A stretch of DNA of 64,000 nt from a virus, in the IMG/VR virus record IMGVR_UViG_3300021171_000010, positions 1-64,000 of that record. One strand, written 5' to 3'. Made by a program: the position numbers and the translations under genes. The notes beneath the pieces were generated by a model. It was given only the letters and a program-made list of their open reading frames with translations, did no database searches and was not told where the DNA came from. Each line of letters begins with the position of its first letter. Position 1 is the stretch's first letter. Positions 11,772-42,715 of this stretch are shown piece after piece.

Positions 11772-12502
11772 GTCCCAAAATCCTAATATGCTTGGAGTTT
11801 TGGGAGGGCGACAAAGCCCAATCGATGCAGCTCGCGCGATTCATCGCCGACCTTCAGCCCGGGCGCTGTGATTCTGCCGATTTTCTTTTCGTGTCACGTT
11901 TTGACTGTTCGCAGGATGCGGAAACAATTAAATATGTTGCTCGAAAGTTCAACGTGCACCACTACCGCAGTCCGAAGTCTGGCACGGGTTGGCCTCATGG
12001 TTGCAATGAATTGTGGTTCGGTGCCATGGAGTGGATTTATCACATGATAGAGGCTAAGAAAGTGCCTCAATATAAGGCCATTTTTACAATCGAGGGAGAC
12101 GGGCTTCCTCTGCAGTCAAACTGGATTGTGGACTTCTCTCGTAAGTGGGATGAACTAAATGCTATAAAGCCTGTTTATGTAGCAGGCGCTATATTGAATC
12201 CCGGCGAAGACGGGGAGCACGTGAACGGCCAAGCGTTCTTCTCTGGTGACCTTCGATTTTTATTTTGGATTGTTAAACGAATTAACGGAGCTCCTTCGAA
12301 TTGCGGCTGGGATTATTGGTTGCGGAAGGATTTTGCCCGATGGGGGCAGGCGCAGATGCCCGGGCTTCGTTGCTACTGGGGCACTAAGACTTTCTCACAG
12401 GAGCAGTATGAGCAGGAGCAACGAGATGGCACCGTGTGGCTGCACGGAGTTAAAGACAATTCACTATACTCAATGAGCCGAAAGAAACTCTTGAACGTAT
12501 GA
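11768..12502 (+). CDS. Putative glycosyltransferase-like protein
   Basis: 244 residues from ATG 11768, which overlaps the preceding stop (ATGA); the frame is open further upstream but only inside the previous gene. ICLEFWEGDKAQSMQLARFIADL resembles the N-terminal nucleotide-sugar fold, and AIFTIEGDGLPL and GQAFFSGDLRF offer acidic loops. The end (MPGLRCYWGTKTF, WLHGVKDNSLYSM) ends in a His/Asp context typical of acceptor loops. Membership in the glycosyltransferases is inferred from the pattern and the neighbours. Confidence 0.5.
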   Translation: MSPKILICLEFWEGDKAQSMQLARFIADLQPGRCDSADFLFVSRFDCSQDAETIKYVARKFNVHHYRSPKSGTGWPHGCNELWFGAMEWIYHMIEAKKVPQYKAIFTIEGDGLPLQSNWIVDFSRKWDELNAIKPVYVAGAILNPGEDGEHVNGQAFFSGDLRFLFWIVKRINGAPSNCGWDYWLRKDFARWGQAQMPGLRCYWGTKTFSQEQYEQEQRDGTVWLHGVKDNSLYSMSRKKLLNV

Positions 12503-13434
12503 TGGACCGAAATCGAAAAGTTTACGTGGCCGGACATCGTGGTCTCGCGGGCCGCGCAATTCTTCGGGAGCTAAATACCTTAGGATTTGAAAACGTGTTG
12601 ACGATTCCGCACAATTTATTGGACCTACGAAATCAGAAGGAAGTTTTTTCGATGTTCAAGCATGAGCGCCCCGATTACGTTTTTCTGTGTGCAGCTAAGG
12701 TGGGTGGAATTGTGGCGCATCTCAATTCGCCTGTTGATTTTTTGGTGGACAATCTGGCCATCCAAACGAACGTTATGCAGGCGGCTAAGCAATGCGGCGT
12801 GGAAAAGCTTTTATTCTTGGGGTCTGCGTGCGCGTATCCGAAGTTTGCGCCTAATCCAATCAAGGAAGAGTATCTACTTACCGGCGAACTTGAGCCTTCA
12901 AACCGGGGGTATGCTCTGGCGAAGATTGCGGGCATTGAAGCGTGCAAGGCATATCGAAGGCAATACAATTGTGATTTTATCGCGTGTATGCCAACTAACT
13001 TCTATGGGCCGGGCGACAACTATCATGCAGAAAATTCGCACGTTATTCCTGGCATGATACGCAAACTGCACGAAGCCAAAAAAGCAGGCGTCTGCAAAGC
13101 TGTATTGTGGGGGACCGGATTCCCGGTTCGTGAATTTATCTATTCCGACGACTTGGCCCGCGCGTGTATTTTTCTCATGAATAATTACAGCAGCGGGGAG
13201 CTTATAAATTTAGGTTCCGGGGAGAATGTGACCTTGCGCGAATTGGCGCGTCTGGTAGCGGCCGCGGTGAATTACCAGGGCGATGTTATCTGGGATACGG
13301 AGAAACCGGACGGAACCCCCGAGCGAAGGCTAGATAATTCCAAGCTTTTTGAAATGGGCTGGCTGCCGACTGTTGGACTGGGCTATGGTTTGCTAGAAGC
13401 CTACAAAGATTTTTTATGCCGAGAGCACTTATAA
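12499..13434 (+). CDS. fcl: GDP-L-fucose synthase
   Basis: 311 residues, extended short-chain dehydrogenase fold. The Rossmann motif [10 protein letters not shown] is at residues 12-21. LGSACAYP gives the catalytic Ser and [16 protein letters not shown] the YxxxK pair. NFYGPGDNY and [13 protein letters not shown]-type segments (here [14 protein letters not shown]) match the WcaG/Fcl family. It converts GDP-4-keto-6-deoxy-D-mannose to GDP-L-fucose by epimerisation and NADPH reduction. The next gene makes its substrate; the two overlap by 19 bases. Starts ATG 12499 or ATG 12502 are both possible. Confidence 0.93.
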
Positions 13435-14366
13435 CTGGAATAACCGGGCAGGATGGTAGCCATCTTGCTGAATTGCTGTTGTCAAAAGGCTATGAGGTGC
13501 ATGGCATCATGCGCCGGGCTAGCACCTTCAACACGGCGCGTATCGACCACATATGGGATAAACTGTATATTCACCATGGTGACCTAACGGATTCGGGCAA
13601 TCTCTCGCGCATCGTTCACACAGTGGCGCCGGATGAGGTTTACAACTTGGGTGCGCAGTCGCACGTGAAGGTGTCCTTTGATGTTCCGGAATATTCTATG
13701 GAAGCGACCGGCGGCGGCTCGCTTCGATTGCTGGAAGCGGTGAAGGAATTCGCTCCTGGCGCTCGGTTTTATCAAGCGAGCTCGTCCGAGATGTTCGGCT
13801 CTTCGCCCCCGCCTCAGAATGAGTCCACCCCGTTTCATCCACGCAGCCCTTACGGATGCGCAAAGGTTTTCGCCTACTGGACCGCGGTAAATTATCGAGA
13901 AGCTTACAAAATGCATGTGAGCAACGGGATTTTATTCAACCACGAGGGACCGCGCCGCGGAGAGACTTTTGTTACGCGAAAAATTACCCGGGCTGTGGCT
14001 CGAATAAGGAAGGGGCTGCAGAAAGAGCTGGTGCTTGGTAATCTTAATGCTCTTCGTGATTGGGGGTATGCCGGCGACTTTGTGGAGGCTATGTGGTTAA
14101 TGGTGCAGAAATCTTGGGCTGATGATTACGTTATTGCTACGGGCGAGATGCATACGGTGAAGGAATTTATTGAGCTCGCTTTCGATTATGTGGGCCTTCC
14201 CTGGGAGCCTTACGTGAAGACGGACCCTAAATATTTTCGTCCCTCTGAGGTGGATGCGCTGCAGGGCGATGCGACGAAAGCGTTTAAACAGCTCGGGTGG
14301 AAACCTAAAACTTCGTTTGCTGACCTTGTGGCGATGATGGTTGAGAACGACCTAAAGATAGTATGA
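13416..14366 (+). CDS. gmd: GDP-mannose 4,6-dehydratase
   Basis: 316 residues. [18 protein letters not shown] is the NAD(P)-binding Gly motif near the N-terminus. [10 protein letters not shown] and [12 protein letters not shown] carry the catalytic Ser/Glu and the Tyr-x3-Lys. [19 protein letters not shown] and [13 protein letters not shown] are hallmarks of Gmd. It converts GDP-D-mannose to GDP-4-keto-6-deoxymannose, the substrate of the upstream Fcl. GDP-mannose itself must come from the host, as no mannose genes are seen. Start overlaps the end of fcl by 19 bases and its stop overlaps the next gene (ATGA). Confidence 0.95.
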
Positions 14367-33202: not shown

Positions 33203-34801
33203 ATGGCTATAGGACAAGAGCCCATTCAACCGATTCAAGCTGGCGCCACTGCGCAACCGCTAGTCACTTCGGCATCCGATGTCGTCACTCCGGATGCGGT
33301 GGCGCAGCTTACTGATGGTTTTCGCAAAGGCTTCATAACGGCTGATGATGTGGTCAATCGTATCGGGGACGTAGGCAAGGCACAGAAAAAGGCCCTCCTG
33401 GAATCTCTTGGTGAATATGTCAATCCGGATTTGATTAATTCACGGCTTGCTGCTGCCAAAGCTTCGACTGCGCAGAGTAATCTACAGCAGCAGCAAGCAA
33501 CGGCGGCGCAGGGCATCGTGCAGCCGGCCGCTAATCTCGCGCAGACACAGATTGCTTCTCAGCAGGCTGAAGCGGTTTACGGCAAAGGTGGACTGGAAAC
33601 TTATCAGACTCTTGGGCCGCTCTACGGTGAGTCTATGCCGCCTAATCCGGATGAGAACGATTTCAAGAAAGCTGCGCAGCGCGGGAATGAAATGAAAGGG
33701 CAGATGATGTTGGCGGACCGGTGGCTGCAACAAATCGCACCAGCGGCAGATTACACCTTCACCGATGCCCAAGGCAATACATATCCTCGCAAGAAAAATT
33801 GGCAGGGCATTGATGTGACTCCGCCAAACCCTTCGACCGGATATCCCGGGTCTCCTGCTTATTGGGCCTATGCGAAGCAGCTCGACCAGTTTTTGCCGAA
33901 GTTCCATCCAGCCCGGTCCCAGTATTTTCTTGACCAGTCTTCGGCACCTAGCCCGGATGATGTTCACGAGGTGGAACCTACTGTGCCGGCGGGAACGCAT
34001 CCCGCCTCGTCTGCGATTGAGCCTTTGACGGATGACCAAGTGCGAGCAGCCGCGGTGAATAAGTTGGGCCTTACCGGTGACCAAGCGGCGAACATGAACG
34101 CCCGAGATTTGACAACCGCCAGGACTCTCATAGAGCCTGCCCAAGCTCCTCCTGCAGTTGCTGCCGCTCCGGCCGCTGCTGCCGTAGCTCCCGCTTATTC
34201 CGGCCAGGGCGCCGCGCCAGGGGAAGTTCCCATAAAGCCCGGTCAGACGGTGCCTGAGGCACGCGAGCAGCTTCAGAAGCTTCCCGGTATCGAGCAATTT
34301 GCCAAGGCTCAGCCTCTGTATGCCAATTTTCTATCCGCGGCAGTGAACGCGCACAAAACTCCGGCCGGGGAGCCTACGGGAACCAGTGATTTGACTCTGG
34401 GAGAAACCTACGGCAAGCTGCTTGACCCGAGCGCCACACTTCGCGAGTTTAAGTGGGATGCTATCAAAAAAGCCATACCCTGGGCCGATGAGTTTTCGGA
34501 TGCTAAGAATTTGATTCTGCGCACCCACACTTTCCCACCCCAGTTCCGGCAGCGCTTGGTGGACGATGGATTCAACATCATCGAAAATAGCGAAAAGGCA
34601 ATTGCGCCGAAGTTGCAGTATGCTCAGAAGCAATATCCTGGGGTGCTCGATTCTGACGAGCAGGGTATCGCGAATGGAGTGCCTTTCCGGCAGCGCAAGG
34701 GTTATTACCAAGCAATCGCGAGCTCTCCTGCCGCGGCTGCCGGTGGCAATAAACGCACAGTAAATATTCCTGGTGTTGGCCCGGTAATCGTCAACTTTTA
34801 A
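33203..34801 (+). CDS. Internal virion-like protein, 532 residues
   Basis: Helical N-terminus (QAVYGKGGLETYQTLGPLYGES preceded by a Gln/Ala coil), a Pro/Ala linker at about 310-350 (APPAVAAAPAAAAVAPAYSG), and a compact C-terminal domain with RQRKGYYQAIASS and a beta end (VNIPGVGPVIVNF). No lysozyme or transglycosylase motif is seen. Its leader is TCTAATTTATGGC. It ends four bases before the giant gene. Likely a gp15-like internal protein by place only. Confidence 0.5.
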   Translation: MAIGQEPIQPIQAGATAQPLVTSASDVVTPDAVAQLTDGFRKGFITADDVVNRIGDVGKAQKKALLESLGEYVNPDLINSRLAAAKASTAQSNLQQQQATAAQGIVQPAANLAQTQIASQQAEAVYGKGGLETYQTLGPLYGESMPPNPDENDFKKAAQRGNEMKGQMMLADRWLQQIAPAADYTFTDAQGNTYPRKKNWQGIDVTPPNPSTGYPGSPAYWAYAKQLDQFLPKFHPARSQYFLDQSSAPSPDDVHEVEPTVPAGTHPASSAIEPLTDDQVRAAAVNKLGLTGDQAANMNARDLTTARTLIEPAQAPPAVAAAPAAAAVAPAYSGQGAAPGEVPIKPGQTVPEAREQLQKLPGIEQFAKAQPLYANFLSAAVNAHKTPAGEPTGTSDLTLGETYGKLLDPSATLREFKWDAIKKAIPWADEFSDAKNLILRTHTFPPQFRQRLVDDGFNIIENSEKAIAPKLQYAQKQYPGVLDSDEQGIANGVPFRQRKGYYQAIASSPAAAAGGNKRTVNIPGVGPVIVNF

Positions 34802-34804
34802 GAT

Positions 34805-37800
34805 GTGCCTACGTTTACCGCACCTGACGGTTCGCCTGTTACTTTGACCCCAGAGCAGCAGACTCAAGCGCTTAGCCTTGCATCTGCTGCTACTCCCGAA
34901 GCTACTTTCACTCGGCCTGACGGCACTCCCGTCACATTGGCACCTGAGCAGCAATCTCAGGCGTTGCAACAGGCCCAATCTCCCGCGCCGATGCTTAGCC
35001 GGCCGGATGGCACGCCCCTGGACGTCACAAGTCTTCATGCTGAACAACTGGCCGAGTTGAATAAGCAAGAGCCGGGTTTCGACCTCCCGTCCGTGTGGAA
35101 TTCCCTGCCCGCGGAACAAAAAACACCTGACGCGCTAGCGAGATTTTCTGAAGCTTCGCACCTCGTGCATCAGCAGCCTTTTTCGTTGCCTACGGTGACC
35201 AAGATGCTTTCCAATCTCTGGCAGCTTGCCAAAGGGGGCGGCGAGATGATTTCCAACCTTGCCAAGGGTGGCGCTTTGATAGTTGGTGGATATCCCGGCG
35301 CAGGCACCTGGATGGACCCCCAGAAGGTTAAGGAAGTTCAGCAGGGAATCGCCGAAGGATGGTCTGGAACAGAGAGCGCGGTGACTGGACTCGCCAATCA
35401 ACTCAAGGAAACAGTGGTGCGGCACGTCATTCAGCCGCCTAACACACTGGACCCGGCGGTTAAGCAGCAGAATTTTCTTGATGAGGCTGCGATGGCAGAC
35501 CAGCAGTCTCAAATTCTAAAAGGTCGCGGCGAGTTCATGAATCGAGTTGGTGGCGATGAAATATCTTATTTGGAGTCACAGGGATTTCCGGTTCGCCCAG
35601 AGCATGCTGCTAATCTTGCTCAAGTGGACCCATTCACTTTTTATCTTTTTGGCAAAGCCTTTGACGCATTGCCGGCGGCTACTAAAGCGGCTATTCCCAC
35701 GCCGATTTTAGACGCAATTCAAAAAGCCAGCGATACCGCGACCGATACCGCCAAACAAATCGTGGGCGGAGGAGCTGCTGCGACTGCTGCAGTGCTGCAA
35801 GGTGTAGGCGCGGGCGTGACTAAAGCGGCTCCGCATATTGGGCGCCCCGCGGCTGCGATTGCCGGCGGAATTCATGCCGGCGTGCCGGGCGCGGTCACGG
35901 GACTGGTTTTCGGCAAAGGCATGACCGAATCCCTGTCTGAGATGGGGAAGAAAATTGCTTCGGCAGCTAAAGGCACCGCTAAATTCGGTGAAGGCGTGTC
36001 CAGCGAGGCGGCTACCGGACCGGTATCACAGGCTGCCAAGGACATTATTGAAGCTGCGCCCGGCGCATTAGCTGGTGTCGCTCAAGGCGCCGCTTTAGAT
36101 GTGGGACTTCAGGCGGCCACAGCAGAGACGCCGCAGCAACAGCAAAGCTTCACCCCGGTGGGGACCGCCATGGGATTGACTCATGGTGCTATGTCTGCTG
36201 GCAAGTGGATGCTCGGCGGCCAACTTGCAGGAGAGCGGAACTGGGGCGCTACCGCAGGTGTGCCAAATTCGGCAGCGTTTCCCGCGCTGAACACTCTCCA
36301 CAACGCCGCAATGTCTGCTGCGCCCCCTAAGATTCAGGAAAGAATCAGGGCGATTCAGCAGCTTAAGCAGGGAGTCAATCCTAACACTGATGTTTTCTAC
36401 ATCCCCGACCCGGTGGGTGTGATGGCTGCTCTGGGTGCAACTCCGGGTGCGGAACAGCATGCTTTTCAGGCCGGCGCCGCGAATGGAGTTTTCTTGAAGG
36501 ATTTGCCCGGAGCGAATGGGCAGAAGCGCAACGCAATCATCTTCCAGAACGTAGATGCGGCCCCACACGAAGCAGTGCACGCGATGGATGCAGCTCTCGG
36601 AGCGGAAAGAGTAAATGAGCTTAATCAGTCTGCTAAATCAGACTATGGAGACCTTTGGGACCAATTTACCAGTCATTACGCCAATTTGCTCAATGGAGGA
36701 CAGCCACTTCCTGAAGGCACTACGCCAGGAGATTTTCTGCTTCAGCAATCAGGATTTGGCCCTGAGGCAGCCCGGAATAAAACCGGCGGAGACGGGTCAG
36801 ATTGGCAGACTGCTCTGACACCAGACGAAAAGCAAAACGCGATTGACCGCTACATCGGCGCCGAGATTCGCGCGGAGAACGGGGACGCGTATTTCAAACG
36901 CACGGGCGGCAAAGCGCCGGGATTCACAGACAAAATGGCGAATGCTGCCGGCGAGCTCGTAAGCCTGCTAGGTGGAAATCCCTTAGAGGGACGCGTTAGC
37001 AGCGGACTTCAACTACCGTTGCGATGGGACACGTTTAAACAGGCTGGTCAAACTCTTGCCGAGGCCCGGGCTAATGTTCCTCCTGCTTTGCGGCCTGTAG
37101 CTAGAACGCCACTAACTACTAAGACGGTGCCGACCACGCCGGAGGAAATCCAGCAGAATGCGGATGACGCAAGAGTAATTGCTGGACAGCAGCCGGCAGA
37201 GAAACCGACTGGCGCCGAGGGCGAGCAGTCGCCCAAAGAAGCCCTGGGAACAGTTGCTGAAGCGATTGCAAGCCAGTCCCCAGTGCGATATCAATACCGC
37301 GGGGCCGCCGGCGAAACTCCTACAGGGGGAGCCTTGGAAACTGATGTTTCGCAGCGCCAAGCCGAAATAGCCAAAGCTCAAAACGTGTCTGAGACCGACC
37401 GAGATCTTTTCGAGCGCGTCGGATTCCCATACAAAGTAGAAATGACCGGCAAAGGTCCTCAAGTTCTAGACTGGGCGCCCGTAAATCTCGCCGCAAATGC
37501 TTTTCGTTGGTCCAAAGCTCTGTCAGAACTAGCCAAGAAAAATCCAAATGCTCCGGAGCTTGCACGCAATCCATTTGCATTAGATGTCGCGAAAGGCGAG
37601 TTCACAACTGAAGGCTGGCATGATTTGTTAGACACTGCACAGAAAGTATCTGCAAATCAACTTGCCGGATTTGGCGGGGCTGGACAGAAAATCGTTGTGC
37701 CGTCCGATTTAGGGGCTGCGAACGTCTATGCACCGCCTCGTGTTTCTGAAACTGCTCCTTTTCAAGTTGACCAAGCGAAAGCAGATTTTATTAACATGCT

Positions 37801-40800
37801 TTATGGGGAACGTCCGCCAGAGACACCGCGTGTGTCTCGCAAAAGCGGCGTCCCCGCCAATGTTGTGGCGCAGAAAATCTCTGCCGCTACTGAGCCCGGA
37901 AGGGTAGTTGAGCCAGCGAAGATTCGAGCAAAGCCCAAGCAGGCCGCCGGGCTTGGCGTGGAACCTGGGACGTTAATAGAGCGCGCGCCATTCAAAGAGC
38001 CAATTTTGGGTGTGCCTACCATCCAGGAAGTAAATCCCACCCGAGGTGCTTTAGAAAATGCCCTGCAGTCCGCCGGTGTTGAAATCCCCAAGATGACAAA
38101 AGTCATCCGCCGGTTGAACCTGGAACATATCCATTCAGTTCAACCGGAACCAAATCTGCCGCGGACCGCGGGCGCCAATGTTCTAACCACCACTGCCGGC
38201 TTTATGCCGGTGACGGATTTTGTTGACCGGCTTGATAAAACCTCGCCGGATGATTGGCGAAACATGGTGACCAATTATCAGGGCCGATTTGGGGGTGGAC
38301 AGACCGGTTTGTCAATAGAGGTTGGGGCTGGGGCAAAAAGTCCTGAGGAAGTGGCAGCTTTGCAATCTGCTACGGAGCGCCAAAGTGAACTAATGCGCGG
38401 GGCTTTAAAGAACAGAGATTTTCAAACTGCCGCGGGATATGCGATTAAGGCGCAGGCAGCTAGAGAGGCTCATGAGGCCGCTACTGGTGGCGGAGGGATG
38501 CCAGATTTTCTGCAAAGGTATCACCCCGAGGCTGGATATAAACCTCCGTTTCCTGAATCGACTTTACAAGCTGCGCCGCGGAATGAAGATGTGGCCAAAG
38601 TGGCAGAGGATTATGTGGGCCGACCGCTGCGTCCCATCGGCAATTTGCCAATCAGCCCCGACTTAGGCAAGCGCCTCGCGGACTTCGCACAGGAAGCGCA
38701 GCACAATCCGGATGACCCTGCTGTGAAGGCTAGTTATGGTGCGTTGAACGCGCAGATTAAACAGCAGTATGACGCAATCCGGAAAGCGGGCTACACTGTA
38801 GAGCCGTGGACCGGCGCAGGCGAGCCTTACAAGTCCAGTGCCGAGATGTCTGCAGACGTGCGCGACAACAAGCACCTTTTCTTCACGCCAACTGCGCGCA
38901 GTTTTAGTGGCCAAGAAAACAACTTGATGCTACAACCCTCTGGCGTGGGTGATTTAAGTCATAATGATTTATTCCGCGCGGTGCATGATTTCTTCGGCCA
39001 CGCCAAGGAGGGGTTGCAGTTTGGTCCCCGGGGTGAATATAATGCTTGGCGGGAACATTCCCAGATGTTCAGCCCGGAAGCTCAGGGCGCCTTAGCTGCC
39101 GAGACTTTGGCTCAAAACGCTTTCGTAAATTTCGGTAGTCATCTCCGCAACGCGGAAGGAAACATACCGGCAGTGGGAGAGCCCGGGTATGTTCCGCCTG
39201 CTCAGCGACCTTTCGCGGAACAAAAAAATTTCGTGGTGCCCTCCGAACTCAGGAAAGCCGCACAATTTCAACCACTTCCTCCCGGTGCTGGCAAAGCTCT
39301 TGATTGGCGTGACTTAGGGAACGATACTCTTGCTCCCGGCCTTCACATCGAAGCTATCGCTGGAAAGCCTCCTGCTGTTCCGATTTCTCAGCTCCAAAAA
39401 GAGGGCTGGAAAACGATGGACTTTCAAGATAATGGAAGCTTCCATGATTACGACAATCGCCCCGTTTTTTACAAAGATAATACGGGAAAATTTCCCGTAA
39501 CTCCTGATGGAGTAAAGGCGGCTTCTGAGGCCGCTAGTAAAGCTTTTGATGAAGCTCAAAATTTAGCGTTCGAAGACCGATATGGCGAAGGCCCCGTTCA
39601 ATATCAGCCTAGACCAATCGAAGAGGCGCGTAGCGAGCCGAAAACGATTCTAATTCGCCACGGAACGACTGCCCTGAATAACACTGACCCGACCAAAGAT
39701 TTAATCCGCGGGCACAAAAACGTTCAGCTTAGTGAAGAGGGCCGACAGCAAGCCGCGGAGCTGGGGCAGCAGCTTAAAACCTCTGGTATCTCCAGAATTT
39801 ATTCCTCTGATTTAGACCGCACCATGGACACTGCCAAGGAAGTGGCCAAAACCACCGGTGCGCCTATAACGCCCGATGCTAGACTAAGGCCCTGGAAACT
39901 TGGAAGCACAATCGAAGGAAAACCGACAGCGGATATGCTGCCTAGAATCAAATCTCTTACTGAGAGTCCAGATGAACGACCGCCCGGCGGAGAGACCTTC
40001 AATGAATTCAAGGACCGTTTTCTTGAAGGCTATCACGCAATCCAGGACGCGCATCCGAATGAGCACACCGCTATAGTGACTCACTATCGCGGCACGAAGT
40101 TGATGGATGCTTGGCGTGCCGCCGGCGTGGATAATGACGAGGTGAAACCAGATGTTTTCGATGCATATGACCCGCACAAAAAACCGGGCAGTTATCAGGT
40201 GCTCGACAAGCAAGGTAATGAGCTACCTCTAGATACCGCTCGCCCGGAGGGAGCTCCAATCACTCACCTCTCTGATGCTGAGTTGAACTCGGCGCCGGGC
40301 ATGACGCGCGAGCAGACTCTGGCAGCCGAGCGAGGGGGAACCCAGCCAGCACAGTTCAAGCCTCGTGAGAAACAGGAAAAAGAAATCGAGCTGCGCCACT
40401 GGTCAAACATTCCGGGACTCAAAGTGCTTGACCCTCGTTTTCATGGCACCGGCTTGAGTGGTGAGGAACGCGCCCGAGCCCGTGACTACAAAGAAATTTA
40501 CGTGCCTCGCACCTATTTTGGAACGAAGGATTACACCAAAGAGCCGAACCTGGGGCCAGAGCAATACCGCGCTTTTGTGCAGCGCAGCAAGCTCTACCCG
40601 TTTCAGGAAGACCCCAAAGATTTGTGGCCCACGCCGGAGGAAGTGGAAAAGGCCGGATACGCGCCGATGGACTCTCGCGCGGCGAATACGCTTTACGAAA
40701 ATAAGATTGCGCAGGCTGGTTATGAGGGCTATATTCACCGTGATGCAAAAGTCGCTGCGAAGTTCACCAAGACTCCGGTAGAATATTTAGGCTCTATGGC

Positions 40801-42715
40801 CCAATTCTCACCATCTACCAAACCTCGTGCTATCCGAGCAGCCGCAGTGCAAGACAAAGACACTGGCCAAATTTTCGAAGGTTTTGCACATTTTGATGCT
40901 CACGGAAAAATGCTGGATGCTGGTTATAATCCTCACGACTTGTTTCAGCACCCGCAGGGTTTTGTGACAAATGAAGGTGAATTTTTGGACCGAGAACAGG
41001 CTTTAAAAAGGGCGAGAGAATTGGACCAAATACGTCCTTCCTACGCCGAAAATAAAACGCGAACGCGTGCTATTGCTGAGGCTATAGATATGGCCGCCAA
41101 ACCCCCATCCTCAGCAGAGCCGGCCGGGCCGGCGCAATTCAAACCCGCGGGCGCTCCCAAACTGGAAGATTTCCAATCTGAAGACAAAATAGCTAAAGCG
41201 CTCGCGCGCCCGGGATGGGCATTACTCACCGCGACCGAAGAGCGAAAAGGTCCCGGCACTGCTCCGGTAAATGTGAAAGCAAACGAACGCTTATCAGACA
41301 GACTCGCTCAGCTCGGTTATGATTTCACTCCTGTAGCTGGCAGCTATAAAGGCATCGACCAAGGCCAGAATTTTCTCGTGACTGGCATTTCTCCACAGGA
41401 TGCTCTCACGCTGGGGAAGGAATTCAATCAAGAATCCGTTCTTACTCCCGCCGGACTGGTGTATCAAGACGGAAGTGTGCACCCCGCCAAGCCGGAAGAG
41501 ACTACCATAGGCAAAGCGGCCAAGAAAAACGATTTCTATTCCCAAGTCCAGGGCGGCCCGGCATTTTCGATGGGTATCGATTTCGAGAACAAGATTCCCG
41601 CTTCTGAAGCTCCAGTCCCCGCGGCTCGGCCAGAGCAGCAGATGATGGGCGGAGAGTTTTCGCCCACCAAAGAGCTGGCCGGCAATCAAATGTCGCCCAC
41701 GGAGCTGAAGGAACATTACCCGGAAGCGATTGTAGTGCCTGATAAGGAAAACGGCAAGCCTGTAGGCATCCCTTCGGATATCAAAGAATCTCCACTCTAC
41801 AAAGAGCATGAGACTGAAGCTGAGGCAGTGGACACTTTCGCTAAACGACTCGCAGACTTTGCTCGCCAATACAAAGACAACCCAGCTTACAAAGATGGGC
41901 TGCGTTGGTATTCTGAATTCGTCCCGCTTTTGAAAAAGCATTTTGGCGAGCATGCCCAAATAATGGCTGAGCTCCTGGCGGCCACAAGCCCGCAGAACAA
42001 TCCACAGCAAAATTTTGCGATGGCGAATGATGCGCTGGAAATGTGGAAGCGCGGCAAGTTCGATAAACAGCTCGCTAAATTCGAAGAAGGTGCAAAAAAG
42101 ATTGAAGATGGGACTTGGAAAGATTCCGGGGCGCCGACCGAAGCAAAATTCATGGCTGACTGGATTGATGAGCACGATTTAAAACCGCGGCAGAGCAATG
42201 GAAAGCTTTATAACATGCACTCTGTGCCAGTGCTTCAGGTGCTCGCCCGCAAGTGGCTAGAAAACACCGGCGGCCCGAAGACTCAAAACTTCGTCAAGAA
42301 TCTCTTGGGCACCGGGCATGGCGCCACTTATGATGTGTGGGCTGACCGTACCCTTCGCAGAATCGGATATTCAGGGCATCAAGCGCGATGGCGAATCCTG
42401 CCAAAGAACGCGGTGGGGGTCTCAGATGCTGATTTTGCTTTCGGCCAGAAAGTTTTCGCCAAGGCAGCCAAGGAGCTCGGCGTGAGGCCGGATTCTCTGC
42501 AGGGCGGTCTGTGGTTCGCAGAAAAACAATTGTGGGCGGACAACGGGTGGGGTAGACTTGACTTAGGCGATTTTCGGAAAGAAATCCAGAATCGCGAGTT
42601 GCTGAACCGCGGCATTGTGCAGCGCTTGGCAGCTACGGAAGCGGCGCAGCAAGCTCCTCAGACTGCGCAGAGCGGATTTGATTTGGGAATGATTGAACCG
42701 AGACCGATTCGATGA
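34805..42715 (+). CDS. Giant polyvalent virion protein (2,636 residues)
   Basis: Starts at GTG 34805 and is nearly an eighth of the window. Three N-terminal (PDG-T/S-P)-type repeats are followed by Ala/Gly helices. Later domains: HEAVH (588-592), an HExxH metallopeptidase-like site; HDFFGH (1394-1399) with GPRGEYNAWREHSQMF, a signature of phage polyvalent proteins; a histidine phosphatase with RHG (1618-1620), then DLDRTMDTAKE and a second His region; an ART/PARP-like module (about 1862-1995, HWSNIPGLKVLDP, YFGTKDY); and a C-terminal helical domain (about 2298-2520). Several modules are preceded by A/V-Q-F/Y-x-P. Such giants are ejected with DNA and carry enzymes into the cell. No lytic transglycosylase is recognised. 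Confidence 0.8.
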   Translation: MPTFTAPDGSPVTLTPEQQTQALSLASAATPEATFTRPDGTPVTLAPEQQSQALQQAQSPAPMLSRPDGTPLDVTSLHAEQLAELNKQEPGFDLPSVWNSLPAEQKTPDALARFSEASHLVHQQPFSLPTVTKMLSNLWQLAKGGGEMISNLAKGGALIVGGYPGAGTWMDPQKVKEVQQGIAEGWSGTESAVTGLANQLKETVVRHVIQPPNTLDPAVKQQNFLDEAAMADQQSQILKGRGEFMNRVGGDEISYLESQGFPVRPEHAANLAQVDPFTFYLFGKAFDALPAATKAAIPTPILDAIQKASDTATDTAKQIVGGGAAATAAVLQGVGAGVTKAAPHIGRPAAAIAGGIHAGVPGAVTGLVFGKGMTESLSEMGKKIASAAKGTAKFGEGVSSEAATGPVSQAAKDIIEAAPGALAGVAQGAALDVGLQAATAETPQQQQSFTPVGTAMGLTHGAMSAGKWMLGGQLAGERNWGATAGVPNSAAFPALNTLHNAAMSAAPPKIQERIRAIQQLKQGVNPNTDVFYIPDPVGVMAALGATPGAEQHAFQAGAANGVFLKDLPGANGQKRNAIIFQNVDAAPHEAVHAMDAALGAERVNELNQSAKSDYGDLWDQFTSHYANLLNGGQPLPEGTTPGDFLLQQSGFGPEAARNKTGGDGSDWQTALTPDEKQNAIDRYIGAEIRAENGDAYFKRTGGKAPGFTDKMANAAGELVSLLGGNPLEGRVSSGLQLPLRWDTFKQAGQTLAEARANVPPALRPVARTPLTTKTVPTTPEEIQQNADDARVIAGQQPAEKPTGAEGEQSPKEALGTVAEAIASQSPVRYQYRGAAGETPTGGALETDVSQRQAEIAKAQNVSETDRDLFERVGFPYKVEMTGKGPQVLDWAPVNLAANAFRWSKALSELAKKNPNAPELARNPFALDVAKGEFTTEGWHDLLDTAQKVSANQLAGFGGAGQKIVVPSDLGAANVYAPPRVSETAPFQVDQAKADFINMLYGERPPETPRVSRKSGVPANVVAQKISAATEPGRVVEPAKIRAKPKQAAGLGVEPGTLIERAPFKEPILGVPTIQEVNPTRGALENALQSAGVEIPKMTKVIRRLNLEHIHSVQPEPNLPRTAGANVLTTTAGFMPVTDFVDRLDKTSPDDWRNMVTNYQGRFGGGQTGLSIEVGAGAKSPEEVAALQSATERQSELMRGALKNRDFQTAAGYAIKAQAAREAHEAATGGGGMPDFLQRYHPEAGYKPPFPESTLQAAPRNEDVAKVAEDYVGRPLRPIGNLPISPDLGKRLADFAQEAQHNPDDPAVKASYGALNAQIKQQYDAIRKAGYTVEPWTGAGEPYKSSAEMSADVRDNKHLFFTPTARSFSGQENNLMLQPSGVGDLSHNDLFRAVHDFFGHAKEGLQFGPRGEYNAWREHSQMFSPEAQGALAAETLAQNAFVNFGSHLRNAEGNIPAVGEPGYVPPAQRPFAEQKNFVVPSELRKAAQFQPLPPGAGKALDWRDLGNDTLAPGLHIEAIAGKPPAVPISQLQKEGWKTMDFQDNGSFHDYDNRPVFYKDNTGKFPVTPDGVKAASEAASKAFDEAQNLAFEDRYGEGPVQYQPRPIEEARSEPKTILIRHGTTALNNTDPTKDLIRGHKNVQLSEEGRQQAAELGQQLKTSGISRIYSSDLDRTMDTAKEVAKTTGAPITPDARLRPWKLGSTIEGKPTADMLPRIKSLTESPDERPPGGETFNEFKDRFLEGYHAIQDAHPNEHTAIVTHYRGTKLMDAWRAAGVDNDEVKPDVFDAYDPHKKPGSYQVLDKQGNELPLDTARPEGAPITHLSDAELNSAPGMTREQTLAAERGGTQPAQFKPREKQEKEIELRHWSNIPGLKVLDPRFHGTGLSGEERARARDYKEIYVPRTYFGTKDYTKEPNLGPEQYRAFVQRSKLYPFQEDPKDLWPTPEEVEKAGYAPMDSRAANTLYENKIAQAGYEGYIHRDAKVAAKFTKTPVEYLGSMAQFSPSTKPRAIRAAAVQDKDTGQIFEGFAHFDAHGKMLDAGYNPHDLFQHPQGFVTNEGEFLDREQALKRARELDQIRPSYAENKTRTRAIAEAIDMAAKPPSSAEPAGPAQFKPAGAPKLEDFQSEDKIAKALARPGWALLTATEERKGPGTAPVNVKANERLSDRLAQLGYDFTPVAGSYKGIDQGQNFLVTGISPQDALTLGKEFNQESVLTPAGLVYQDGSVHPAKPEETTIGKAAKKNDFYSQVQGGPAFSMGIDFENKIPASEAPVPAARPEQQMMGGEFSPTKELAGNQMSPTELKEHYPEAIVVPDKENGKPVGIPSDIKESPLYKEHETEAEAVDTFAKRLADFARQYKDNPAYKDGLRWYSEFVPLLKKHFGEHAQIMAELLAATSPQNNPQQNFAMANDALEMWKRGKFDKQLAKFEEGAKKIEDGTWKDSGAPTEAKFMADWIDEHDLKPRQSNGKLYNMHSVPVLQVLARKWLENTGGPKTQNFVKNLLGTGHGATYDVWADRTLRRIGYSGHQARWRILPKNAVGVSDADFAFGQKVFAKAAKELGVRPDSLQGGLWFAEKQLWADNGWGRLDLGDFRKEIQNRELLNRGIVQRLAATEAAQQAPQTAQSGFDLGMIEPRPIR

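Follow-up and report, generated by a model that had tools for sequence, protein, structure and literature searches.

Whether the giant proteins that phages inject are cut into working parts is a question raised when such proteins were first described. A giant protein of the polyvalent type is encoded in the window, the whole stretch of 64,000 nucleotides analysed here, which belongs to a 73,551-base virus record. A short tag recurs along its chain, and the locus asks what this tag is for. Because the site is repeated and tuned at one residue, processing can be tested directly.

Make-up of the giant protein

The frame at 34805-42715 is open over 2636 residues, and its single stop lies at its end. 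A second IMG/VR contig, L002, encodes the same protein (blastp 99.96% over 2636 aa), which differs at the GTG start alone, where the query has M. The gene, its modules and two motifs within them are as follows.

34805-42715, + strand: polyvalent protein gene, GTG start, 2636 aa
36362-37084, + strand: zincin-like metallopeptidase module, aa ~520-760 (alignment A4, AF2 model)
36566-36580, + strand: HEAVH, aa 588-592 (sequence motif)
37352-38194, + strand: conserved core (MID) module, aa ~850-1130 (alignment A2, 6 relatives)
38582-39250, + strand: HDFFGH module (phrog_3170), aa ~1260-1482 (PHROGs, scan of viral contigs)
38984-39001, + strand: HDFFGH, aa 1394-1399 (sequence motif)
39275-39595, + strand: uncharacterised module, aa 1491-1597 (clear relative in L112 only)
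39641-40204, + strand: histidine phosphatase module, aa 1613-1800 (Pfam His_Phos_1)
40382-40789, + strand: ART-like module, aa ~1860-1995 (alignment A5)
40814-41038, + strand: "D2000", a small module that is shuffled, aa 2004-2078 (found 15 times, in 11 proteins of the clade)
41192-41599, + strand: DUF3293 module, SAM-lyase-like fold, aa ~2130-2265 (Pfam E 9.5e-7)
41687-42640, + strand: C-terminal module DUF7178, all helical, aa ~2295-2612 (Pfam E 7.3e-7)

Pfam recognises His_Phos_1, DUF3293 and DUF7178 in the window protein, and PHROGs four phage families, all unnamed. In relatives of the same clade Pfam detects ART-PolyVal, radical SAM and acetyltransferase (GNAT) modules, and several domains of unrelated activity reside therefore in single chains. 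The giant protein of L117 hosts a radical SAM domain at aa 1415-1574 (Pfam E 3.5e-13), alongside GNAT and histidine phosphatase modules. The window protein is a phage polyvalent protein. It is built of a conserved N-terminal part (the zincin-like peptidase plus the core MID), a variable enzyme cassette and a common C-terminal module. The initial annotation had described a 2,636-residue frame with HEAVH at 588-592, HDFFGH at 1394-1399 and RHG at 1618-1620; the frame is real, and all three motifs lie where it placed them. Its view of a polyvalent protein made of separate enzyme modules is borne out by the Pfam modules found here and by the shuffled modules of the relatives.

The N-terminal half carries a zincin-like peptidase module. 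In an alignment of 19 homologs (A4) H69, H73 and the distant E168 are invariant, and the HExxH Glu is almost always kept; one homolog, L115, carries HDxxH, HDAGH replacing HExxH. The AF2 model of the region (pLDDT about 90) predicts a strand (574-580), the HExxH helix (583-598) and then a Glu helix, which is the order described for polyvalent zincins (PMC5512222). No PDB match was obtained by sequence, or by fold when the whole model of the N-terminal half was compared to the PDB by Foldseek, and the assignment thus rests on sequence and predicted topology.

The phosphatase proposed by the initial annotation corresponds to a His_Phos_1 envelope at 1615-1761 (E 2.7e-33, 115.7 bits versus a cut-off of 21.7). 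Judging from its residues, the module is intact. The catalytic positions of branch 1 histidine phosphatases (RHG, Arg, Glu, His) are invariant across 5 homologs, RHG, R77 and H165 being so in alignment A9, and the closest solved structures are 1ebb/1h2e. The module recurs in L106, L111, L112 and L117. With 5 of the 18 clade members carrying it, this is no isolated case. The ART-like part, proposed as well at the outset, has 10 homologs in alignment A5, but Pfam ART-PolyVal, which does match the relative L112, has no match in the window protein.

Giant multidomain organization, a zincin-like peptidase, ART-type or unknown modules and extensive shuffling are features shared with the polyvalent proteins described by Iyer et al. 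2017 (PMC5512222). Neither a per-protein border tag nor a histidine phosphatase module is found in PMC5512222. Its text does not speak of a "linker", a "boundary" or a "short linear" motif, and the word "phosphatase" occurs in it 0 times, in agreement with the early remark that such an enzyme is unusual here. An earlier description of a comparable border tag was not found in a literature search covering papers accessible without subscription.

Distribution of the border tag

The tags of the window protein are listed below.

38195-38209, + strand: core border tag AGFMP, aa 1131-1135 (AGFxP invariant in six aligned relatives)
39260-39274, + strand: border tag AQFQP, aa 1486-1490 (after the HDFFGH module)
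39596-39610, + strand: border tag VQYQP, aa 1598-1602 (pattern, module-border comparison)
40349-40363, + strand: border tag AQFKP, aa 1849-1853 (pattern, module-border comparison)
40799-40813, + strand: border tag AQFSP, aa 1999-2003 (before D2000; pLDDT < 50)
41132-41146, + strand: border tag AQFKP, aa 2110-2114 (pattern, module-border comparison)
41651-41665, + strand: border tag GEFSP, aa 2283-2287 (before the C-terminal module)

The initial annotation had reported six copies of a recurring motif, and the pattern [AV][QR][FY]x[PY] does occur six times, at 827, 1486, 1598, 1849, 1999 and 2110. The core of the motif is however F-x-P, and AGFMP (1131-1135) and EFSP (2284-2287) had been missed. 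In turn, the copy at 827 reads VRYQY, lacks the Pro and is probably there by chance. Shuffled sequences contain on average 0.32 copies of the pattern and 0/3000 reach 6, a figure that is optimistic because the pattern was picked after seeing the data. QFxP alone was observed 5 times versus 0.48 expected; one of the five copies (1405, QFGPRG) is a conserved residue stretch inside the HDFFGH domain. In the AF2 models aa 1126-1134, the tag at 2000 and aa 2271-2295 fall below pLDDT 50, between confident domains.

Relatives were gathered through the core module. In six aligned relatives (A2) the module ends in an invariant AGFxP, and a scan with the module retrieved 23 loci, mostly new; all clade members are metagenomic viral contigs, L012 and L115 being two labels for one contig. 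A scan of genome contigs for the core module, made in search of hosts, gave no match. Across the ~23 relatives modules differ in order and number, and the motif lies at module starts or ends. Local alignments between clade proteins have 294 distinct starts, 111 of which fall within -15 to +40 of a tag (random 60, maximum 82 of 1000). According to independent profiles, 14/15 D2000, 4/4 DUF3293 and 4/4 ART-like modules begin at a tag, or up to 48 residues after it, and 8 of the 11 clade members with a HDFFGH module have a tag 6-14 aa past its end. As an example, QFLP (1554) of L112 resides between ART-PolyVal (1304-1543) and His_Phos_1 (1570-1720). All counted tags fall outside the Pfam envelopes, with the exception of KFGP in L111, a phosphatase residue. 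Both the shuffling of modules and the placement of tags at their borders are thus computed results. Borders lacking a tag occur as well, at the phosphatase of L106 and L117 and at several C-terminal modules, and count against the reading favoured below.

The expectation that the motif would track borders in homologs holds within the clade, but not beyond it. The Nostoc phage Nsp-JY18, the Planktothrix phage Pag-Yong1 and the Flavobacterium elemo phages carry HDFFGH, DUF3293 and/or ART-like modules, differently arranged. The homologous pieces lie in giant or large proteins, which have no repeated FxP tag. The tag is therefore a feature of the clade and not a general rule. In Nsp-JY18 the giant gene lies directly after a lysozyme gene, downstream of capsid and tail-tube genes, and the elemo phage counterparts are labelled "structural protein".

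Polyvalent proteins do not share the tag universally, an idea that was considered and rejected. When recurring words were tested for without bias, the only clear cases outside the clade were L041 (QFAAR) and L076 (R[FY]MPE). The same kind of search, in which no motif is named, ranked FLP at the top in L012 (8 copies), FMPE in L010 (5), RxMP in L076 (6) and QFxA in L041 (7). The distant polyvalent protein of L041 contains three exact copies of QFAAR and one QFAAA. In L039, another distant polyvalent protein, a FSVPK-like repeat of its own recurs at 5 sites, without reaching significance. Scanning viral contigs for the codon pattern of DVRFMPE yielded 4 stretches and a permuted control 2, mostly short frames in either case, and is uninformative.

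The variable position and its reading

The residue at x is set per protein, the usual choices being K, Q, L, M and A. K is favoured in L098 and L114, Q in L097, L104 and L105, L in L115, A in L111, M in L112 and L010. Window tags are mixed (M in the core, then Q, Q, K, S, K, S), and the matching code is therefore clearer in relatives than in the window protein. Downstream of the core, x equals the x of the core AGFxP at 51 of 90 sites, the permutation mean being 15.6 and the maximum 39 in 5000; in a hold-out set of five further loci, four of which have a core site, 10 of 15 sites match (3.8 expected), a count reached by 23/5000 permutations. None of these permutations gives an exact probability, because clade sequences are related. 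Agreement within proteins peaks at x (z = 16.1), and is at most 4.7 at other positions. Matching is thus, by computation, almost confined to one position.

Three observations speak against simple inheritance. The residue follows the protein, not the module (19/49 pairs versus 30/193), and where two D2000 copies are tagged, both have A in L111, M in L112, and Q in L117. The sister phages L098 and L105 have K and mostly Q in their tags, respectively, while K/Q exchanges are rare elsewhere, 16 being counted among 1862 aligned positions. Synonymous codons agree 450 times at tag sites, versus 410 predicted from codon usage, and the FLP sites of L115 use five different Leu codons. Such scrambling denotes selection for the peptide rather than for repeated DNA.

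The initial annotation had left the choice between a linker and a cleavage site. Per-protein matching at x and scrambled codons strengthen the case into that of a recognised peptide site; cleavage itself stays putative. It is an even call, on the strength of sequences and models, whether the F-x-P tags are sites recognised in a phage-specific manner, the likeliest use being the proteolytic release of modules. Many module borders carry [Q/K/R/S/A/G]-F-x-P, and x would be the specificity position, tuned in each phage. We infer that a single partner recognises the tags. More tentatively, recognition might amount to cleavage, the partner might be the built-in zincin, and the protein might be packaged and injected. 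A peptidase, perhaps the zincin of the protein itself, would cut at or beside the Phe and free the modules, whether still inside the head or once ejected into the host. Zincins that are selective for the residue following the cut would be well served by a Phe ahead of x-Pro. Cleavage is favoured since recognition is needed exactly at borders, a peptidase is built in, and processing has been described or proposed elsewhere. DdrB of phage P1, which is polyvalent and has an MPTase at its C-terminus, undergoes processing ahead of packaging, and processing by embedded peptidases has been proposed for polyvalent proteins generally (PMC5512222). DarB and DdrB are large proteins packaged in the P1 head, and DarB is believed to enter the host (PMC9024508, PMC5512222). 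Head targeting of DarB is however ensured by its N-terminal 30 residues, and not by repeated internal tags (PMC9024508).

Some observations weigh against release by cleavage. L115 is the most regular tag carrier (FLP eight times, core included), yet has HDAGH and not HExxH. Distant homologs manage without the tag. The window protein, with M in its core tag and Q, K, S and K at others, is itself a poor instance of matching. No clear candidate emerged among N-terminal and core residues that might track x, and the only new acidic residue common to both K-type phages is found in the Q-type L105 too.

Tags could alternatively be docking sites for one phage protein, such as a portal, an inner-core/ejection protein or a chaperone, which would hold the long chain in a threaded or partly unfolded state while it is packaged and ejected, x being tuned to this partner. 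Copy number, border position, disorder and per-phage x are explained equally well in this manner, and in several relatives a related RFxP/QFxP is found at the extreme C-terminus of the gene just upstream, which a shared partner would lead one to expect. A docking motif, however, need not sit exactly between modules. Moreover, x is R, R, Y and V in the upstream genes of L098, L105, L101 and L112, while the giant proteins have K, Q, Q and M. Docking is accordingly a possible, but rather unlikely, role.

The tags may be seen also as recombination scars or repeated linker DNA, the likeness of which is inherited. Modules clearly shuffle starting at the tag, and D2000 reaches three copies in one protein, but tag codons are scrambled, tag flanks do not match, and x tracks the recipient protein, not the module; this origin is largely refuted and most improbable. 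Equally hard to credit is the notion of ordinary flexible linkers, where F-x-P would serve as a structural cap or reflect a composition bias. Linkers are indeed rich in A/Q/P here, the raw enrichment was seen after the choice of the pattern, and the count of any-x sites is unremarkable at p 0.05 in 7 of 18 proteins. One-position matching, repeated in the hold-out set, and the recurrence of FLP, FMPE, RxMP and QFxA in a search naming no motif are nonetheless difficult to reconcile with linkers of this sort.

Returning to a recognised site that releases modules, the tag pinpoints the ends to be expected, the key residue, and the contrasting sisters L098 (K) and L105 (mostly Q). A broader proposal, to which we grant slightly less than an even chance, is that tags form a private peptide code. 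The residue at x would be read by one phage-encoded partner, module swaps between phages would require tags to be retuned to the recipient, and other polyvalent lineages would have analogous tags (QFAAR, FSVPK, R[FY]MPE). The recognised site, if confirmed, could also serve as a modular tag system for phage protein delivery, and as a route to module borders in uncharacterised polyvalent proteins.

Other modules and neighbouring genes

The DUF3293 module is plausibly related to SAM lyases. Foldseek pairs it with the T3 SAM lyase 8bb1/7ock (prob 1.00, TMt 0.55, E-values 0.06-0.13), and a GxY plus QE signature resembles Gly56, Tyr58, Gln104 and Glu105 of Svi3-3, a member of the T3 SAM lyase family (PMC7877911). 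DUF3293 and SAM lyases have no significant sequence similarity, and profile comparison performed no better than with unrelated profiles. The link therefore rests on the fold and the four-residue signature. The catalytic Glu (Glu69 of Svi3-3) is replaced by Gln/Gly at the aligned position of the window protein, and E69Q nearly abolishes Svi3-3 activity (PMC7877911). SAM-lyase activity of the window module is doubtful because of this replacement. Some DUF3293 members, the window protein excepted, may have kept the catalytic Glu, as their sequences have PE/DE there. DUF3293 may be an anti-restriction or anti-CRISPR module. The SAM lyase fold, GxY and QE(S) are found in the window module (41192-41599) as well as in L004, L008, L029 and L085.

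D2000, present in at most three copies in one protein, has a weak PHROG match (phrog_839). The AF2 model of the DUF7178 module has a pLDDT of about 97, and weakly resembles the 8-oxoguanine glycosylase AGOG 1xqp (Foldseek rank 7, prob 0.38, TMt 0.40). A search of viral contigs for the HDFFGH module identified 80 loci, relatives accounting for 572 of 599 matching stretches. The module is extremely common in phages, has no assigned function, and keeps ND[LI]FRAVHDxFGH and GQNSW nearly invariant.

The gene directly upstream of the giant gene (33203-34801) encodes 532 aa, and belongs to no Pfam or PHROG family. Elsewhere in the window, adjoining genes for a NAD-dependent epimerase and a GDP-mannose 4,6-dehydratase (12499-14366; Pfam E 8e-60 and 9e-133) make up a nucleotide-sugar pair in a phage, and a single tRNA-Met gene is located at 2818-2889.
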